21,557 nucleotides of DNA from the NCBI GenBank assembly GCA_903958285.1, contig CAJBSR010000049.1, positions 1 through 21,557 of the forward strand, given 5' to 3'. The DNA comes from an uncultured Sphingomonadales bacterium. GTDB taxonomy: Bacteria > Pseudomonadota > Alphaproteobacteria > Sphingomonadales > Sphingomonadaceae. This document shows positions 14,266 to 21,557 of the stretch, one piece after another. The position numbers and the translations under genes were made by a program. Under the pieces are notes generated by a model that saw nothing but the letters and a program-made list of their open reading frames with translations, was not told the DNA's origin and did no database searches. Each line of letters begins with the position of its first letter. The stretch's first letter is position 1.

Positions 14266-15324
14266 TCAAGCCTCAATCCGCGTCGCGCTCGCCATGGCTG
14301 GACCGAGCTTTGGAAAAAGCGACAAAGCGAGCAGGATCAGACCACGCCCCATGGCGAATTCAGAGGTGTGCCAGATGGCCGTTGCGCGCCCGATGGGCCG
14401 TCCGCTCTGCCGTCCGAACCGGGCCTGCCAATGAGGGGCCTCATCGCGCCCGCCCTGCAGGAACGCTTCGGCCGCACTGCGTCCGCTGGCGAGCGCAATG
14501 CCATTGCCTTCGCCTGCCAGTGACGGAATGACGCCAGCCTGATCGCCAATGCGGAACAGGCCGGGCGTTGTATGGCGTGCGTGCCAGCCATAAGGGACGG
14601 TGGCGATGGCATCGATGGGTGTCGTATCCGTCAGACTGTCCAGCCGCGCCCCAAAAGCCTTATGCGTGCGGCCAAGGCTTTGGAGCAGGCCGCGCGGGTC
14701 CCTGCCATGTTCGGTCAGCAACGACTTGCGCAACGCGAGGCAGATATTGGCGCTGCCATCTTCCTGCAGTTCAATCCCGGCATAGCCACGGTCGAACATG
14801 TGCAGTTCAATGGCGGCGCCAACCAGTCGGGTGAGCGACGCACTGGCGGGCAGGCGGACGCGCAGGCCCATGGCGGGATCGCGGGCAGTGCGGGGGCGTT
14901 CCGCACCCTTTAAATCATATTTGCCGGTCGCCAGAAAAACCGTGTCGGTCCGGTCTGCCAACTCATCCAGATGCCGCACCATGACGCCACGTTCCAACCC
15001 GGCGCCTGCCTGAACAGCGGCGGACAAGAGGGCGGTGTCCATTGCGCGGCGGGACAGGCCCAGCGCGCGCTCCGGCAAGGGGGCAGAGGCCGTGCGGTCG
15101 CCCCAAAAGACCGTGAGATGGTCAACCGGATGGCCGTCTGGCGACACGCCGAGCCGCTCGAGGCTTTTTATTGTGCGCCAGCTGAGAAAGCCGCCGCACA
15201 GGGCGTCGCCGGTTTCGGTCGATCGCTCCAGGATTAGCGGACGCGCGCCGCCCTTGGCGAGCGTGATGGCAGCGGCACAACCGGCAGGGCCGGCGCCGAT
15301 GATTATCGGATCGCTTCGACGCAT
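14266..15324 (-). CDS. FAD-dependent oxidoreductase of a type III PKS operon (geranylgeranyl-reductase/hydroxylase-like)
   Basis: A 352-residue flavoprotein. The N-terminal FAD-binding motif [13 protein letters not shown] begins at residue 7, an acidic residue in LILERS closes the fold, and the second FAD motif appears as [25 protein letters not shown], the GD motif of the group that contains geranylgeranyl reductases and aromatic hydroxylases. Either a hydroxylation or a reduction is therefore possible. The ATG at 15324 begins the conserved region; the frame extends to 15393 but that stretch only shadows the methyltransferase. The start lies 22 bases inside the methyltransferase gene, so the two are coupled. 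Its place after a type III polyketide synthase and a methyltransferase suggests it tailors the polyketide product. Confidence 0.87.
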
Positions 15325-15992
15325 AGCCGAAAAGGGAAGGTGCGAAAGACGCGGGCATTGTGCACTCCGGCTTCCGCGAGAATGGGGGGCCATTCACTTG
15401 GCCGGTACGACCGGGCGATGGAGAGCGCGCCGTCTTCCCGCACGATCCGGTGCCACCCCGCAATCCGTGCGAGCAGGGGATAGCCCGCATAAGCAAAGCC
15501 ATGGCGGTGGAGATCATTGATGAACCAGCCGCGCTGGGCATGCTGATCCATGAAGCGCAGGAAGCCGACCAATTGGTCATGCGTCATATGGTGCGCGACA
15601 AGGCTGGAAAGGATGACGTCCCAAGTGTCTTCGGCCAGATCCGCATAGTCGCCCGTGCGGTAGGTGATTGGCAGGCTGGCCGACGTGCGCGTCATCGCTG
15701 CCTCGGCGCTGCGGGGGTTGAGGTCGATGCCGACGAGTTCGACGGACTGGCGCCGCGCCTTGGCCCAATGGGCGATGCGCCGCAGCATATCCCCGTCGCC
15801 AAAGCCGACATCAAGAATGCGCAAAGGGCTGCTGCTGCGCGCCGTGATCCGGTTGAGGAAGCTAAGTGTCGGGCGACGGGCCATCGTGACTGTGTTGACC
15901 TGCGCCAGATCTTTAAGGACGCGGGCATAGATGGAGGGGTCGAGGTCCTCGGCATCCATCTGCTCTTCTGTCAGGGCGCGCGTTTCGAGCAT
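15303..15992 (-). CDS. Class I SAM-dependent methyltransferase of a type III PKS operon
   Basis: A 229-residue Rossmann-fold methyltransferase. SAM motif I is RILDVGFGDGDML (58-70), followed by the acidic end of strand 2 in VELVGIDLNP, the DYADLAEDTWDVILSSLVAHHM segment, and a C-terminal region (WHRIVREDGALSIARSYRPSEW) like that of small-molecule methyltransferases acting on quinones and phenols. Its start codon overlaps the polyketide synthase stop by one base, and its end overlaps the oxidoreductase start by 22 bases. Unlike the small membrane methyltransferases paired with type III synthases in Bacillus and Streptomyces, this is a soluble class I enzyme. The methyl acceptor, presumably the polyketide, is inferred from position only. 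Confidence 0.87.
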   Translation of the reverse strand: MLETRALTEEQMDAEDLDPSIYARVLKDLAQVNTVTMARRPTLSFLNRITARSSSPLRILDVGFGDGDMLRRIAHWAKARRQSVELVGIDLNPRSAEAAMTRTSASLPITYRTGDYADLAEDTWDVILSSLVAHHMTHDQLVGFLRFMDQHAQRGWFINDLHRHGFAYAGYPLLARIAGWHRIVREDGALSIARSYRPSEWPPILAEAGVHNARVFRTFPFRLCVEAIR

Positions 15993-17053
15993 CAGGGGAC
16001 CGTCCGGAAGCGGAAGCCTTCGGCGGCCAGCCCCGGCCCAAAGGCAAGTGCCACGCCGCGCGATACGGGGCGGCCTATCATGCGCGCCAGCACGAACATG
16101 AGGGTGGCGGAGGACATGTTGCCGCCTTCCAGCAGCACTTGGCGCGACTCGCTGAGGGCATCAGGCGCAAGCGAGAGTCCCTGTTCCACCGCATCAAGGA
16201 TGGACCGGCCCCCGGCATGGACGGCCCAGGCGTCAACATCAGCAGGTGCACCGCCAGCCAGCGTTGTGACAAGGTTGGGATCGCGCAGCGCATCAGCAAT
16301 GCGGCCGGGCACTTGGCCGGACAGATGCATCTCAAAGCCATTGTTGCCAATGTCCCAGCGAATCAGATCGTCTGATTCAGGCAGCGTCGTTGCAAAGGGC
16401 GCCTCGACCGACAGGCCGGGGCCATCGGCACAGACCAGGGCCGCTGCGGCGCCGTCACCAAACTGGAGCATCGCGAGCAGTGATTCGATGCTGCCTGTTC
16501 TGTTGAGATGGAGCGAGGAGAGTTCGACCGTCACCACAAGCACGCGGGCATCGGGTTGAGACCGGACGATGTGCGCCGCACTCCTGAGTGCCGTGACGGC
16601 AGCATAGCAGCCCATGAAACCGACGAGCAACCGCTCTACCGACGGGGAGAGCCCCAATTGCCGCGCGATGATCTGGTCCACGCCGGGTGCGACAAAGCCG
16701 GTGCAACTCGCCACCACAAGGTGCGTGACCGTGGAGAGGTCTTGGGTGAGGCCGCCAATAGCCTCCATCGCGAGCGCGGGCGCATGTTCGGCGTACAGCG
16801 CCATGCGCGCCGCTGTCGTGGGGTCGTCGCCTGCATAAAAGCCACCGGGGGAGACAGGGGAGCCACCGTCTGCGGTGACGGGGAGGACGGCAAAGCGGTG
16901 CGCGATGCCCGCCCGGCTGGCCATGCGGCGGAACAAGGCGCGTTCCCTATCGGTCTCGATGCGGCTTTCCGCCCAACCCACAAAGGCGGCATGGATATCT
17001 TGCGTCGGACGTGCAGTGGCGAGCCCCACGATCCGGGGGACAATCTCAGTCAA
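15992..17053 (-). CDS. Type III polyketide synthase (chalcone/stilbene synthase family)
   Basis: A 353-residue homodimeric-type ketosynthase that extends an acyl-CoA starter with malonyl-CoA without an acyl carrier protein. The catalytic triad is complete: Cys149 in VGFMGCYAA, His279 in WAVHAGG, and Asn312 in EGGNMSSAT. The family segments VVASCTGFVAPGVDQ and LQFGDGAAAALV are also clear. The start is a TTG at 17053, with GAGGA at 17058-17062 as ribosome site and no ATG in frame before an upstream stop; GTG 17029 is an alternative. It leads an overlapping operon with a methyltransferase and an FAD enzyme. Bacterial relatives make alkylresorcinols, alkylpyrones or related phenolic lipids; the product here is unknown. 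Confidence 0.93.
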   Translation of the reverse strand: MTEIVPRIVGLATARPTQDIHAAFVGWAESRIETDRERALFRRMASRAGIAHRFAVLPVTADGGSPVSPGGFYAGDDPTTAARMALYAEHAPALAMEAIGGLTQDLSTVTHLVVASCTGFVAPGVDQIIARQLGLSPSVERLLVGFMGCYAAVTALRSAAHIVRSQPDARVLVVTVELSSLHLNRTGSIESLLAMLQFGDGAAAALVCADGPGLSVEAPFATTLPESDDLIRWDIGNNGFEMHLSGQVPGRIADALRDPNLVTTLAGGAPADVDAWAVHAGGRSILDAVEQGLSLAPDALSESRQVLLEGGNMSSATLMFVLARMIGRPVSRGVALAFGPGLAAEGFRFRTVP

Positions 17054-17134: not shown

Positions 17135-17659
17135 ATGCAAAGTTTCATGATCCGGATCAGCATTTTGCTTGGGTTGCTCCTCGTCGCGCCGACATCTGTT
17201 GCCGGCGAATCATGCCGCTTATGCGCGCCGGAACCTGAACGGTTATCCCAAGGAGGTCGCCCGAGCGTGCCCCTGCGTATTGAGATTGAGACCGCGCTGG
17301 ACCTCGGCCGCGTGGCGCAGGGCGCGGGCGGCGGGGCGGTGGAACTCGATCCCAAAACAGGCACCCGCCGAGTTGCAGGTGCGCTCGCTGATCTGGGCGG
17401 CATGGCGCTGACCGGCACGGCAATGGTCACAGGTACTCCCTTTGCGCGCGTCCGCATTGATTTGCCTGCGCGCGTCCGACTCCAATCGACGACCGGCGAT
17501 ATCGCCGAAGTGGTGCAAATGCATAGCAACCTTCCGCCTGCACCAACGCTGAATGAACATGGCCAGCTGCGCTTCACCTTCGGCGGTAAATTGGTTCTAA
17601 AGGGCGGAGAAAGCGGAAATTTTCGCGGCTCTGTGCCGATCAGCGCTGAGTATGAGTAG
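17135..17659 (+). CDS. Secreted DUF4402 protein, first copy (putative minor pilin-like subunit)
   Basis: A 174-residue exported protein. The signal peptide (IRISILLGLLLVAPTSVAG) is followed at once by a CxxC pair in ESCRLCAPEP. The rest follows the DUF4402 pattern: LDLGRVAQGAGGGAVELDPKTG near the start, VTGTPFARVRIDLPARVRL in the middle, and a final FTFGGKLVLKGG then GNFRGSVPISAEYE strand. That terminal alternating strand resembles the donor or closing strand of fimbrial subunits. The start is uncertain: TTG 17126, ATG 17135 and ATG 17147 are in frame and none has a strong ribosome site. It shares architecture with the second copy downstream but is far more diverged in sequence and less threonine-rich. 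A role as a minor or tip subunit is inference. Confidence 0.78.
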   Translation: MQSFMIRISILLGLLLVAPTSVAGESCRLCAPEPERLSQGGRPSVPLRIEIETALDLGRVAQGAGGGAVELDPKTGTRRVAGALADLGGMALTGTAMVTGTPFARVRIDLPARVRLQSTTGDIAEVVQMHSNLPPAPTLNEHGQLRFTFGGKLVLKGGESGNFRGSVPISAEYE

Positions 17660-17684
17660 AACCGCTTCAATCCTTCCCTGACCG

Positions 17685-17724
17685 TTAACCAAGTGCGGAA
17701 GGACATATTCAAACCATTATGGAT
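17685..17724. promoter_or_regulatory. Candidate regulatory region of the second DUF4402 gene
   Basis: This region holds TTAACCAA (17685-17692) and the palindromic element AAACCATTATGGAT (17711-17724), about 70 bases before the start codon. The same element, with one base changed at the centre, stands before the chaperone gene at a similar distance. No clear -35/-10 pair could be assigned. Confidence 0.4.
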
Positions 17725-17779
17725 CAAAACGCATTCCGGAGTGGGGCAAGGTCGCACTCGGAAGAAGCGTGAATTATCT

Positions 17780-17785
17780 AGGGGA
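17780..17785 (+). promoter_or_regulatory. Ribosome binding site of the second DUF4402 gene
   Basis: AGGGGA lies seven bases before the ATG at 17793. It rules out the in-frame GTG at 17769, which would add eight residues ahead of a normal signal peptide. Confidence 0.75.
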
Positions 17786-17792
17786 CAATAAA

Positions 17793-18290
17793 ATGAACAT
17801 TCGTACTCTCAAGGCAGTGGCTGCCGGTTCGGTTCTGGCGCTCGGCCTGGTTTCGGGTGCTGCAAATGCGGCAACGGCTGATGGCACGGCGCGTGCGACG
17901 ATCCTGCAGCAGGTGACCGTCACCAACACGTCGGACCTGCAGTTCGGCACAGTTGCCATCGGCACCGGCGGTGGTTCTGTGACAGTTGCAACCGGCGGCG
18001 GACGCACCTGCGCCACGACGCTTGTTTGCTCGGGCGCGACGACAGCGGCTGGCTTTGCCGTTGCAGGCGCAGTTGGCATGAACGTCGGCGTGACGGTTCC
18101 GGGTTCGGTGACGCTCACGGAAACAGGCGGCGCGACGATGAGCGCAACGCTGAACTCCAGCGCAGCTTCGCTGACGCTCGCTGGCACGGCGGCTGATGCC
18201 TTCTCGGTCGGCGGTACGCTGAACGTTGGTGGGTCGCAGGCAGCTGGCGCGTATGCCGGTACTTTCACGGTGACCGTCAACTACCAGTAA
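17793..18290 (+). CDS. Secreted DUF4402 protein, second copy (putative major pilin-like subunit)
   Basis: A 165-residue exported protein with a textbook signal peptide cut after SGAANA (residue 26). The mature chain is very rich in Ala, Gly, Thr and Val and low in charge, as in abundant surface subunits. DUF4402 landmarks are ATILQQVTVTNTSDLQFGTVAIGTGG at the start, VPGSVTLTETGGATM in the middle, and DAFSVGGTLNVGGSQ then GAYAGTFTVTVNYQ at the end. Two cysteines nine residues apart (RTCATTLVCSG) probably form a disulfide. It has the strongest ribosome site of the locus and is followed by a strong intrinsic terminator, which fits a highly expressed major subunit. The chaperone and usher-like genes follow. 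No structure or function has been proved for this protein here. Confidence 0.85.
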   Translation: MNIRTLKAVAAGSVLALGLVSGAANAATADGTARATILQQVTVTNTSDLQFGTVAIGTGGGSVTVATGGGRTCATTLVCSGATTAAGFAVAGAVGMNVGVTVPGSVTLTETGGATMSATLNSSAASLTLAGTAADAFSVGGTLNVGGSQAAGAYAGTFTVTVNYQ

Positions 18291-18318
18291 TTCTCTTCCT
18301 TCGGGAACCAGAGGAGGA

Positions 18319-18350
18319 GGGCCCGTCGGTACATCCGGCGGGCCCTTTTT
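18319..18350 (+). terminator. Intrinsic terminator after the second DUF4402 gene
   Basis: An 11-bp GC-rich stem (18319-18329 with 18335-18345, one G-T pair) closes a five-base loop and is followed by five T residues. It begins 28 bases after the DUF4402 stop and is the clearest rho-independent terminator in the window. Confidence 0.93.
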
Positions 18351-18388
18351 CTATGTCCAGCACCCGCACACGCATTTCCCTGCGCCGT

Positions 18389-18416
18389 GGTTAGCAAAGA
18401 TGAAACCATAATGGAT
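18389..18416. promoter_or_regulatory. Candidate regulatory region of the chaperone-usher genes
   Basis: GGTTAGCAAA (18389-18398) is followed by AAACCATAATGGAT (18403-18416). The latter matches the element before the second DUF4402 gene at 13 of 14 positions. It lies after the terminator and 58 bases before the chaperone start, where a new promoter is needed. Confidence 0.4.
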
Positions 18417-18474
18417 GTAAGCCCGTGTCCTGGGTGGGTTGCGTTTTGCCCAGGGAATTTTTCGGGGAAAGTTT

Positions 18475-19290
18475 ATGCGTTTGCCAAAGTTTATGTCCGG
18501 CCTCGGCCTTGTTGCGCTTGTCGTGGCGGCCCCTGCTCAGGCAGCCGGCGATCTGCTCGTCGCGCCAACGCGTGTCATTCTTGACGGCGCACGGGGCACT
18601 GAGGTCATCCTCAACAATATCGACAGTGAGACCGCGACCTACCGTGTCTCTCTGGAGGTCCGGCGCATGAACGCCGACGGCACGCTGGACGAAGTCGAGC
18701 CGGAAAAGGCGACAGCTGCAGAAGCGCAGGCGCTCAGCATGATCACTTATGCGCCCCGCCGTATCGAGTTGGCGCCCAATCAGCCCCAGGCGATCCGCAT
18801 CGGCGTTCGCTCCCCGGCGGATCTGCCCGACGGCGAATATCGCGTGCATATGTTGTTTCGCGCCATCCCGACCGCGCGGTCCGTTACGGAAACCCAGACG
18901 ACGGATTCCGGACTCTCCATCGCACTCACGCCGATTTACGGGGTGACGATTCCTGTCATCATCCGCAAAGGCGCCCTTAAGGCGACGGCGGCAATCGGGG
19001 ATGCCCGTATTGATCGGTCGACGGGTCAGCCGGAGTTGACGATGTCGCTGTCGCGTGAAGGCAGCCGCTCCACCTATGGCCGCATCCGTGTTTTGAAACC
19101 GGGCAAGTCGACGCCTGTCTTCGAGGTGCGCGGCGTGGCCGTTTACCCGGAAGTGAACAAGCGCGCGGTGAGTTTTCCCATTGATGCGCAAACCGCCGCC
19201 CAGCTCGCCGGGCCGGCGACCGTTCAATATCTTGAAGAAGCCGATGCTGGGGGCCGCGTGATCGCGGAAACCCAGACGGTCATCCGTTAA
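18475..19290 (+). CDS. PapD-like periplasmic fimbrial chaperone
   Basis: A 271-residue exported protein with a signal peptide cut after APAQA (about residue 23). The first immunoglobulin-like domain shows the pilus chaperone pattern: LLVAPTRVILDGARGTEVILNN with the conserved Arg that anchors the subunit carboxyl group, TYRVSLEVRRM, then YAPRRIELAPNQPQAIRIGVR and PDGEYRVHMLFRAIP. The second domain runs from SIALTPIYGVTIPVIIRKG to the end. Such chaperones fold subunits by donor-strand complementation and hand them to an outer-membrane usher. The ATG at 18475 has a GGGGAAA site four bases upstream; an upstream TTG at 18439 is less likely. It has its own promoter region after the terminator and is 27 bases from the usher-like gene. 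Confidence 0.88.
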   Translation: MRLPKFMSGLGLVALVVAAPAQAAGDLLVAPTRVILDGARGTEVILNNIDSETATYRVSLEVRRMNADGTLDEVEPEKATAAEAQALSMITYAPRRIELAPNQPQAIRIGVRSPADLPDGEYRVHMLFRAIPTARSVTETQTTDSGLSIALTPIYGVTIPVIIRKGALKATAAIGDARIDRSTGQPELTMSLSREGSRSTYGRIRVLKPGKSTPVFEVRGVAVYPEVNKRAVSFPIDAQTAAQLAGPATVQYLEEADAGGRVIAETQTVIR

Positions 19291-19293
19291 GGG

Positions 19294-19307
19294 CGGGTTC
19301 GAACCCG
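19294..19307. repeat. Perfect 14-bp palindrome between chaperone and usher-like genes
   Basis: CGGGTTCGAACCCG is a perfect palindrome three bases after the chaperone stop and ten bases before the usher-like ATG. In RNA it could fold into a short stem close to the start codon, where no ribosome site is visible, so it might reduce usher translation. The effect is inference. Confidence 0.5.
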
Positions 19308-19317
19308 GATCCCACCC

Positions 19318-21557
19318 ATGCGTCCCCTGATTTCCAAATTGAGGCGTTGGATCGCGGCCTGTGTCGCGATTGGCGTTCTTGCCCAGCCCGCGCTTGCGCG
19401 GGCTGATGCCGTTTGGAAACCCAATGCGGACGACGCGGTTCTGTTTGAATTGCGCTTGGGCCAATATCGGCTGGGCGATGGTGTGCGCGGCTATCAGACC
19501 CCCGCCGGTGTGTGCGTCGACATGGCCGATATGGTCATGGCGCTCGATCTTCCTGTTCGCGTCGACAAGAAGTTGCGCCGCGCAACAGGCTGGATCTTCA
19601 ACGAAAGCCGCACACTCACCCTTGATCGCGACGCCAACACGGTACAAATCGTGAACAAGACGTCCAAACTACCTGCAGGCGCCATTTATGATGCGCCCGA
19701 AGGCTGGTGCGTGGCAACGCCGCAACTTTCCAATTGGCTTGGCGTTGCGCTCAACCCCGATTTGTCGAACGCGATCCTCGTCATTAAGTCTGATACCAAG
19801 CTTCCGGTCGAACTGTCTGCCGAACGCAAAGCGCGGGCCGCCAAGATCCGCCCCGCCTCCACCTTTGACCTCAAGGCGCTGCCGCAAAGCCGCGTTGCCT
19901 ATCGCGGGATCAAGACCCCCTCGGTGGACGCGAATGTCTCCATTGGTGGGCTGCGCGAACGCGGCCATGGCGCCAAGACCGATGTTCAGTTTGAACTTTA
20001 CGCCAGCGGCGAAGCGGGCCCCATCGCTTATGATGCGCGCCTTGCCTCCAACCGCAAGGGTGTGCCGGAATCGCTGCGCCTGCGGGGCTATCGCTATGAT
20101 CCCGATGGCAAGCTGCTCGGTCCATTGAACGCGACACAGATCGCCATTGGCGATGTGCTGGGCCTCTCGTCGGGCCTTTCTGCACAATCTTCCATCGGCC
20201 GTGGTGCGATGACCAGCAACCGTCCGCTTGATCGGCCTGAGAATTTCGACCGGACGGACTTCCGGGGAGAACTGCCGTCCGGTTGGGATGCTGAACTTTA
20301 TCGCAATGGCCAGCTGCTCAATGTCGCGCTCAACCGGGCCGATGGGCGGTATGAATTTCTCGATGTGCCGCTGCTTTATGGGCAGAACCGGTTTGAGATC
20401 GTGCTCTATGGGCCGCAGGGTCAGATCCGGCGGGAACAGAAAATCCTGTCGGTCGGGCCAGATAGCATCCCGCCGCGCCAGACCTGGTATTGGGCTGGCC
20501 TCAATCAGGATGGGCGCGATCTCATCGGCCTGCCCAGTGGCCCGCAATTCGGCACAGACCGCTGGCGCGGGTCTTTCGGGTTGGAACGTGGGCTGTCGAC
20601 GCGCACCTCGGTGTCGGCGAGCTACCATAACCTCTTCGTGAAGGAAGTTGGTCGGCGCAACTTTGTGGAAGCCGCGCTGCGCCAAGCCGTTGGCCCCGTG
20701 CTGGCGCAACTTTCCGGCGCAACTGATCTGAAGGGCGGCAGCGTCCTTTCCGTCCATATGCTTGGCGAACTTGGCCGGATCTATATCAGTGCGGAAACCA
20801 CCAACGTCATGGGCAGCTTCCGCTCCGATCGCATTCAGCGCGGGGTGCAAGGCTTGCACCGTCTCTCGGTCGATCATGGCCTCAAGGTCGGCCGATCGGT
20901 GATGCCGGTTCACGCCGAAGCGCGCTATACCACCCGCGACAATGGCAATGATACGCTGGAGGTGGGCGGCCGTGTTTCCACCAGCTTCAGCCGCTATTCG
21001 ATCACCGCCGAAGTCGACATGCGGCAGGACAAGCGCCCGGTGGGGCCAGATCCGCCGATGGAAGTGGACACGGGCATATTGCTGAACGCACGCGTTGGCC
21101 GGTTCCGGTTGCGCGGCGATGCGCGTTTTGACGTGTCCCCGCAAAGCCGGTTCCGCAGCTTTGGTCTCATCACCGAATGGGCGGGCAAAGGCGATGGAAA
21201 GAATGCGGCCCAATGGCGCGCGGACCTGTCTTATGACCGGATGATCGACCGCGCGCGCGCGGGGCTCGGCTATGCGCGTCAGTTTGACCGGCTATCGCTG
21301 TCGGGCAATGCGGAAGTCGCGACCGATGGATCGGTTGCCGCGAGCATCGGCCTGACCTTCAGCATCGGGCCGAACCCGACGAAAAAGGGTGGTTTTAGAA
21401 TGACTTCCGCGCGTCTGGCGACGCACGGACAGGTGCTGGCGCGCGTCTTCCGCGACAATAATGCCGATGGCATCCGTCAGCCCGATGAACCGCTGGAACC
21501 CGAAGTCCAGCTCGCCGCCGGACGCGTGCCGGTGGATCAATTGACCGACCCCAATGG
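19318..21557 (+). CDS. Outer-membrane usher-like protein of the DUF4402/chaperone locus (3' truncated by window)
   Basis: The frame is open from the ATG at 19318 to the window end (746 complete codons). Residues 1-29 form a signal peptide (CVAIGVLAQPALARA). Residues 40-110 form a small N-terminal domain beginning VLFELRLGQYRLGDGVRGYQTPAG, with two cysteines (in GVCVDM and GWCVAT). A long stretch follows with alternating polar/hydrophobic strands, for example RGSFGLERGLSTRTSVSASY and RTDFRGELPSGWDAELYRNG, as in the barrel and plug of fimbrial ushers. Residues 713-722 (DNNADGIRQP) match the calcium-binding turn of SdrB-like domains, the start of a carboxypeptidase-regulatory-like module. No ribosome site is seen. 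An usher role is inferred from the adjacent chaperone and subunits; adhesin or anchor is the alternative. Confidence 0.75.
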   Translation, partial: MRPLISKLRRWIAACVAIGVLAQPALARADAVWKPNADDAVLFELRLGQYRLGDGVRGYQTPAGVCVDMADMVMALDLPVRVDKKLRRATGWIFNESRTLTLDRDANTVQIVNKTSKLPAGAIYDAPEGWCVATPQLSNWLGVALNPDLSNAILVIKSDTKLPVELSAERKARAAKIRPASTFDLKALPQSRVAYRGIKTPSVDANVSIGGLRERGHGAKTDVQFELYASGEAGPIAYDARLASNRKGVPESLRLRGYRYDPDGKLLGPLNATQIAIGDVLGLSSGLSAQSSIGRGAMTSNRPLDRPENFDRTDFRGELPSGWDAELYRNGQLLNVALNRADGRYEFLDVPLLYGQNRFEIVLYGPQGQIRREQKILSVGPDSIPPRQTWYWAGLNQDGRDLIGLPSGPQFGTDRWRGSFGLERGLSTRTSVSASYHNLFVKEVGRRNFVEAALRQAVGPVLAQLSGATDLKGGSVLSVHMLGELGRIYISAETTNVMGSFRSDRIQRGVQGLHRLSVDHGLKVGRSVMPVHAEARYTTRDNGNDTLEVGGRVSTSFSRYSITAEVDMRQDKRPVGPDPPMEVDTGILLNARVGRFRLRGDARFDVSPQSRFRSFGLITEWAGKGDGKNAAQWRADLSYDRMIDRARAGLGYARQFDRLSLSGNAEVATDGSVAASIGLTFSIGPNPTKKGGFRMTSARLATHGQVLARVFRDNNADGIRQPDEPLEPEVQLAAGRVPVDQLTDPN

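Follow-up and report, generated by a model that had tools for sequence, protein, structure and literature searches.

Chaperone-usher pathways fall into three groups with six clades, according to PMC9452303. The groups are the archaic (sigma) pili, such as Csu and CupE; the classical pili, such as type 1 pili with the usher FimD and P pili with PapC; and the alternative (alpha) pili, such as ECP and CFA/I. We analyzed a 21,557-nucleotide stretch of DNA from an uncultured Sphingomonadales bacterium (the window; GenBank assembly GCA_903958285.1) in which genes for two proteins with the domain of unknown function DUF4402, a PapD-like chaperone, and an usher-like outer-membrane protein follow one another. 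This locus very probably encodes a chaperone-usher fiber whose DUF4402 pilins are strung together by donor-strand exchange, and our results overall support an earlier, sequence-only reading of it as a chaperone-usher locus built on DUF4402 subunits. The system is known in kind, as a chaperone-usher fiber, and its group has gone unrecognized; the case for DUF4402 as its pilin is strong and computed.

The two subunit genes, DUF4402-1 (positions 17135-17659) and DUF4402-2 (17793-18290), encode putative secreted proteins scoring 54.9 and 93.5 bits against PF14352, above its Pfam cut-off of 25.2 bits. The chaperone gene (18475-19290) was recognized by profile comparisons, its PapD_N match of 17.6 bits being below the cut-off of 23 bits. 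The usher gene runs from 19318 to the contig end (21557), which truncates it after 746 visible amino acids. These genes, whose ATG starts were picked by us, and all features given within or between them are on the plus strand. The window is the entire contig C49 of a genome fragmented into 593 contigs, and the missing usher end is found at the start of contig C351, with 143 amino acids from base 2 and then a stop. A 99% identical relative (locus L064) has the full-length usher gene, of 900 amino acids; genes after it look unrelated, by reading alone and with no search of them, so the locus probably consists of four genes. DUF4402, chaperone, and usher genes occurred in this order on one strand at each of the 32 usher loci read for the family, 30 of them distinct (the 32 include two same-contig pairs, L054/L063 and L057/L070, and the near-copies L067/L068). 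Such recurrence indicates that the order is not due to chance and bears out the four-part arrangement noted earlier.

The fourth gene is an usher, as judged by predicted fold and by profile. Its predicted model aligns with FimD and PapC from about residue 182 to 890 (~560 residues aligned), so that the likeness to classical ushers extends over most of the chain. The sequence-only reading had been made to depend on an usher barrel and plug, and the model has both, together with C-terminal domains. An N-terminal domain (19423-19797), a candidate chaperone-binding domain, has strands predicted at residues 40-157 and carries the two cysteines described earlier, Cys66 and Cys131, each conserved in 22 of the 26 ushers of our alignment A1. 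The archaic-side profile alignment begins at column 37, and the rows of the structural alignment with FimD and PapC do not reach this domain. The most conserved stretch (20230-20472) is in the barrel region, within the part aligned to the FimD and PapC barrels; many columns are invariant at residues 317-368, and it may correspond to the plug. After the barrel, a DxNxDG turn (21454-21489), including D713 that is invariant in all 26 ushers, would belong to the first C-terminal domain. It had been described as an SdrB-like calcium turn: the motif stands, but the Pfam matches to SdrD_B and CarboxypepD_reg in the L064 usher were below cut-offs and later in the chain (803-861).

Sequence searches did not by themselves identify the usher. 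The window usher had no Pfam match, and Pfam and NCBIfam searches with the usher gave nothing or weak C-terminal matches. A Protein Data Bank (PDB) sequence search retrieved nothing with the single usher protein and mainly SdrD C-terminal matches with the usher profile; PHROGs returned nothing. Comparison by hhalign was informative once alignments stood on both sides: scores of the usher against single FimD or EcpC sequences were set aside, being no better than those against a large protein at L064:11075 that we took by its look for a TonB-type receptor. Matches to PF00577 and to TcfC (PF16967) were absent from the six genomes tested and from the 26 ushers at E 0.1, in which the locus differs from classical and alternative pili, respectively. 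Two DUF4402 genomes (G039 and G042) encode PF00577 ushers at other places.

By profile, the third gene is a PapD-like chaperone. Over 207 columns, the chaperone profile matched chaperones of archaic-type operons from the same family (eight rows, including neighbors of ushers L196, L197, and L199) at E 1e-11; its match to K-12 fimbrial chaperones was weaker (E 2e-6). At E 0.1, PapD_N recognized seven of the 27 members. An arginine (Arg89 of CsuC) is conserved in archaic and alternative chaperones (PMC4654587). Here R123 and H125 were both invariant in 27 chaperones, and the alignment placed H125, not R123, opposite the likely arginine. A PDB sequence search with the single chaperone found nothing; with the profile, EfmWxLIP1 came first (E 0.003) and FimC matched at E 0.15. 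In the Gram-positive WxL/WxLIP system, WxLIP is predicted to supply the strand that completes WxL (PMC10599100). That system differs in having no usher and is a weak lead; it is perhaps a parallel or related system.

The subunits are pilin-like in their predicted fold, which was judged on the DUF4402-2 model alone. This model (mean predicted local distance difference test score 88.8) has a pilin Ig-like fold, and its structural matches were modest in score and consistent as a list, with archaic CsuA/B first and CfaB, of the alternative group, third among the Foldseek rows. A PDB sequence search with the DUF4402 profile gave nothing of weight. We aligned 52 DUF4402 proteins, picked before the last loci were fetched (labelled DUF4402 frames finally numbered 147), and 48 of the 52 had a penultimate tyrosine. 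At the other end, a candidate donor strand with alternating hydrophobicity occupies codons 27-37 of DUF4402-2 (17871-17903), the low-confidence part of the model. Its odd-even hydrophobicity difference was positive in 44 of 48 rows that were gap-free among the 52, with a mean of 2.94 versus 0.005 (standard deviation 0.24) in permuted rows. This pattern identifies a putative N-terminal donor strand in the polymerizing subunits, and it is weak in DUF4402-1.

The earlier reading took DUF4402 to be the pilin fold, which agrees with the DUF4402-2 model. The two subunit genes probably encode different parts. A CxxC motif in the first 75 residues marks 16 of the 147 labelled frames, a total that includes copies of one locus, and DUF4402-1 is among the 16. 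Five scored usher-linked rows of this CxxC kind had a mean alternation of 0.91 (four positive), and three unlinked rows a mean of -0.17. Usher-linked rows without CxxC averaged 3.72, with the extension in 27/27 scored, and unlinked rows without it kept the extension in 12/13 scored; the gap between the two kinds may come in part from the alignment. DUF4402-2 is likely the major (rod) pilin. DUF4402-1, with its N-terminal CxxC and weak donor-like extension, is possibly a tip subunit, since it would accept a strand and give none. Long DUF4402 proteins of ~340 amino acids were also present beside the usher at other loci (L104, L108, and L189).

Among the described groups, the archaic pili have the nearest usher and chaperone by profile. 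The DUF4402-group ushers scored 195 against the archaic-type set, 87 against seven classical K-12 ushers, and 81 against 18 alternative ushers (214, 84, and 68 with query and target swapped). The archaic-type set has 20 rows, of which five are full ushers linked to SCPU, three are further PF00577 ushers (L196, L197, and L199), and 12 are fragments, partly from the same genes. Reference sets scored 348 (archaic-classical), 206 (archaic-alternative), and 172 (classical-alternative) against one another. We also built a quick tree of 58 ushers, unrooted and on a low-identity alignment. A single branch in it (Shimodaira-Hasegawa-like approximate likelihood ratio test 99) parted 30 DUF4402-group ushers, which had been found by mutual likeness, from the remaining 28 (classical, alternative, archaic, and other PF00577 ushers); in this tree, the usher was not inside the archaic clade. 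The 30 comprised 12 of the 26 A1 ushers and 18 found with A1 or P0004, among them that of L190, which has no DUF4402 gene near. Ushers L196, L197, and L199 have weak PF00577 matches, form a tree branch of their own, and come from genomes without SCPU matches.

The subunits also set the locus apart, with SCPU subunits in archaic pili versus DUF4402 here. All 52 proteins matched DUF4402 and none matched SCPU at E 0.1, nor was SCPU matched in the window genome. In the family sample of 59 genomes, the SCPU genomes (5) and DUF4402 genomes (20) were disjoint. A match between the DUF4402 and SCPU profiles covered the last 38 columns (E 3e-7), a classical pilin profile matched SCPU at E 2e-7 and DUF4402 at E 8e-5, and one long SCPU protein carried a sub-threshold DUF4402 match; by these comparisons, DUF4402 and SCPU look like distant kin. 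The locus might be a divergent archaic, Csu-like system that works in the same way, with pilins too far diverged for the SCPU model to match, since all three parts match archaic-type operons best by profile and CsuA/B tops the structural list of the pilin. We consider this unlikely in view of the missing SCPU matches, the well-supported branch (though in an unrooted tree), the non-overlapping genomes, and a score to the archaic-type set (195) below those of the classical and alternative sets. Both it and the view of DUF4402 as a general secreted domain, discussed below, gain a little weight from the missing root of the tree and the mixed make-up of the archaic-type set. None of the three groups accommodates the locus in the features tested here, and the DUF4402-group ushers are probably a fourth group in their own right, with the archaic group as its closest neighbor.

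In the favored mechanism, the chaperone would complete the DUF4402 fold with a strand in the periplasm, and the pair would dock on the usher. There, the extension of the next DUF4402-2 would take the place of the strand lent by the chaperone. Subunits would in this way join into a chain and exit through the usher barrel, with DUF4402-1, having little or no extension, at the tip. Between DUF4402-2 and the chaperone gene lies a strong terminator-like hairpin with a T run (18312-18352), a possible attenuator with a fold z of -3.6 (-2.6 when a longer stretch was folded). It was not among the four terminator-like sites of a terminator scan (2.3 expected). Nine operons that we chose gave z of -3.3 to -7.1. 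Terminator-like hairpins were present at 24/49 DUF4402-chaperone, 1/51 chaperone-usher, and 7/44 DUF4402-DUF4402 junctions, in a survey that leaves out L054, L070, and L068, counts one locus as both L071 and L243, and uses shuffles preserving base composition only. Partial termination here may raise the output of rod subunit above that of chaperone and usher, so that the hairpin would maintain a surplus of the rod subunit. The usher could instead export DUF4402 proteins singly or as a short complex, for which the presence of only two subunit genes at the window locus (judged from the relative) and the weak extension of DUF4402-1 can be cited. This is decidedly improbable, as the extension is in every scored usher-linked row without CxxC and the position of the hairpin, behind the final subunit gene, suggests that a surplus of subunit is needed.

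DUF4402 and the usher also co-occurred by genome. In the family sample, 20 genomes encoded DUF4402, and every one of the 19 genomes with an usher was among them; the one DUF4402 genome without an usher, G022, is 67% complete. In the class sample (289 genomes), DUF4402 was found in 13 at E 0.001, a confident usher in 18, and both in 10, and local profiles added a DUF4402-like gene beside the usher in four (L177, L180, L185, and L186). In the phylum sample (398 genomes), the counts were 14, 13, and 10, and the other three ushers also adjoin DUF4402-like genes (L236, L237, and L238). Confident ushers were A1 matches of at least 100 bits reaching into the barrel (18 of 26 class and 13 of 51 phylum genomes with any match), a stricter count adopted because many weak A1 matches reflect shared C-terminal domains. 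Fisher's p was 1e-14, 1e-11, and 1e-14 for family, class, and phylum, uncorrected for kinship and with genomes shared between samples. The system therefore occurs outside the sphingomonads, and the idea of a fiber peculiar to them was abandoned.

Individual loci varied. G327 was not among the genomes with a confident usher, and iterated local profiles revealed an usher of ~800 amino acids at both of its DUF4402 loci. Four class-level usher loci (L184, L187, L188, and L190) showed neither a chaperone nor a convincing DUF4402 gene, and in G202 a DUF4402 gene stands alone. Sub-cut-off DUF4402 matches in very long frames of G169 and G419 were dropped, with none of the three parts near, as was G374, which has an SCPU operon. 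At locus L232 (G573), two DUF4402 genes and a chaperone gene are followed directly by that of an 831-amino-acid protein ending in CarboxypepD_reg; usher profiles gave no clear match to this protein, which is maybe a still more distant usher.

Two results weigh against so simple a scheme: 36 of the 68 DUF4402 genes in the family sample were not near an usher, and a chaperone was found in none of the 29 unlinked DUF4402 loci read. The earlier reading had granted that DUF4402 genes usually lying apart from chaperone and usher would tell against it; the outcome is mixed, with just over half of the genes lying apart, yet 19 of the 20 DUF4402 genomes carry the machine. Least probable is that DUF4402 is a general secreted beta-sandwich with only a partial link to the usher, whose many unlinked copies do other work, since these unlinked copies are outweighed by the co-occurrence in three samples and by the extension kept in unlinked rows without CxxC. 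Only tentatively, and leaning against it, we suggest a fourth major group in which one usher serves a scattered DUF4402 library, the operon providing rod and tip and the unlinked genes (those 36, and 14 matches in one 0.9-Mb genome) interchangeable subunits. Fiber make-up would then depend on which distant DUF4402 gene is on. That 0.9-Mb genome, G338 (L173 and L174), is listed as 99% complete and has two ushers, one with an in-frame stop. A second DUF4402 gene pair lies in the window genome (L056, contig C274) and in G050 of the same genus (L055, G050:C3:145000-160000), with no chaperone or usher found near either.

No paper with DUF4402, PF14352, pfam14352, or IPR025514 (which we take to be the DUF4402 identifier) was found in the open-access library searched, subscription journals and preprints being outside the search. 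Titles and opening lines of abstracts of open-access papers joining ushers with sphingomonads or alphaproteobacteria named no such system. If correct, the fiber reading assigns a role to the hitherto uncharacterized DUF4402 domain, adds a surface-fiber system where the tested Pfam usher models see none, in alphaproteobacteria and certain other members of the phylum, and provides a candidate fourth group of chaperone-usher systems.

Elsewhere in the window, the minus strand at 14266-17053 carries consecutive genes for a chalcone/stilbene-synthase-like protein, a methyltransferase, and an FAD-dependent oxidoreductase. They may make up a small biosynthetic operon that diverges from the fiber locus.
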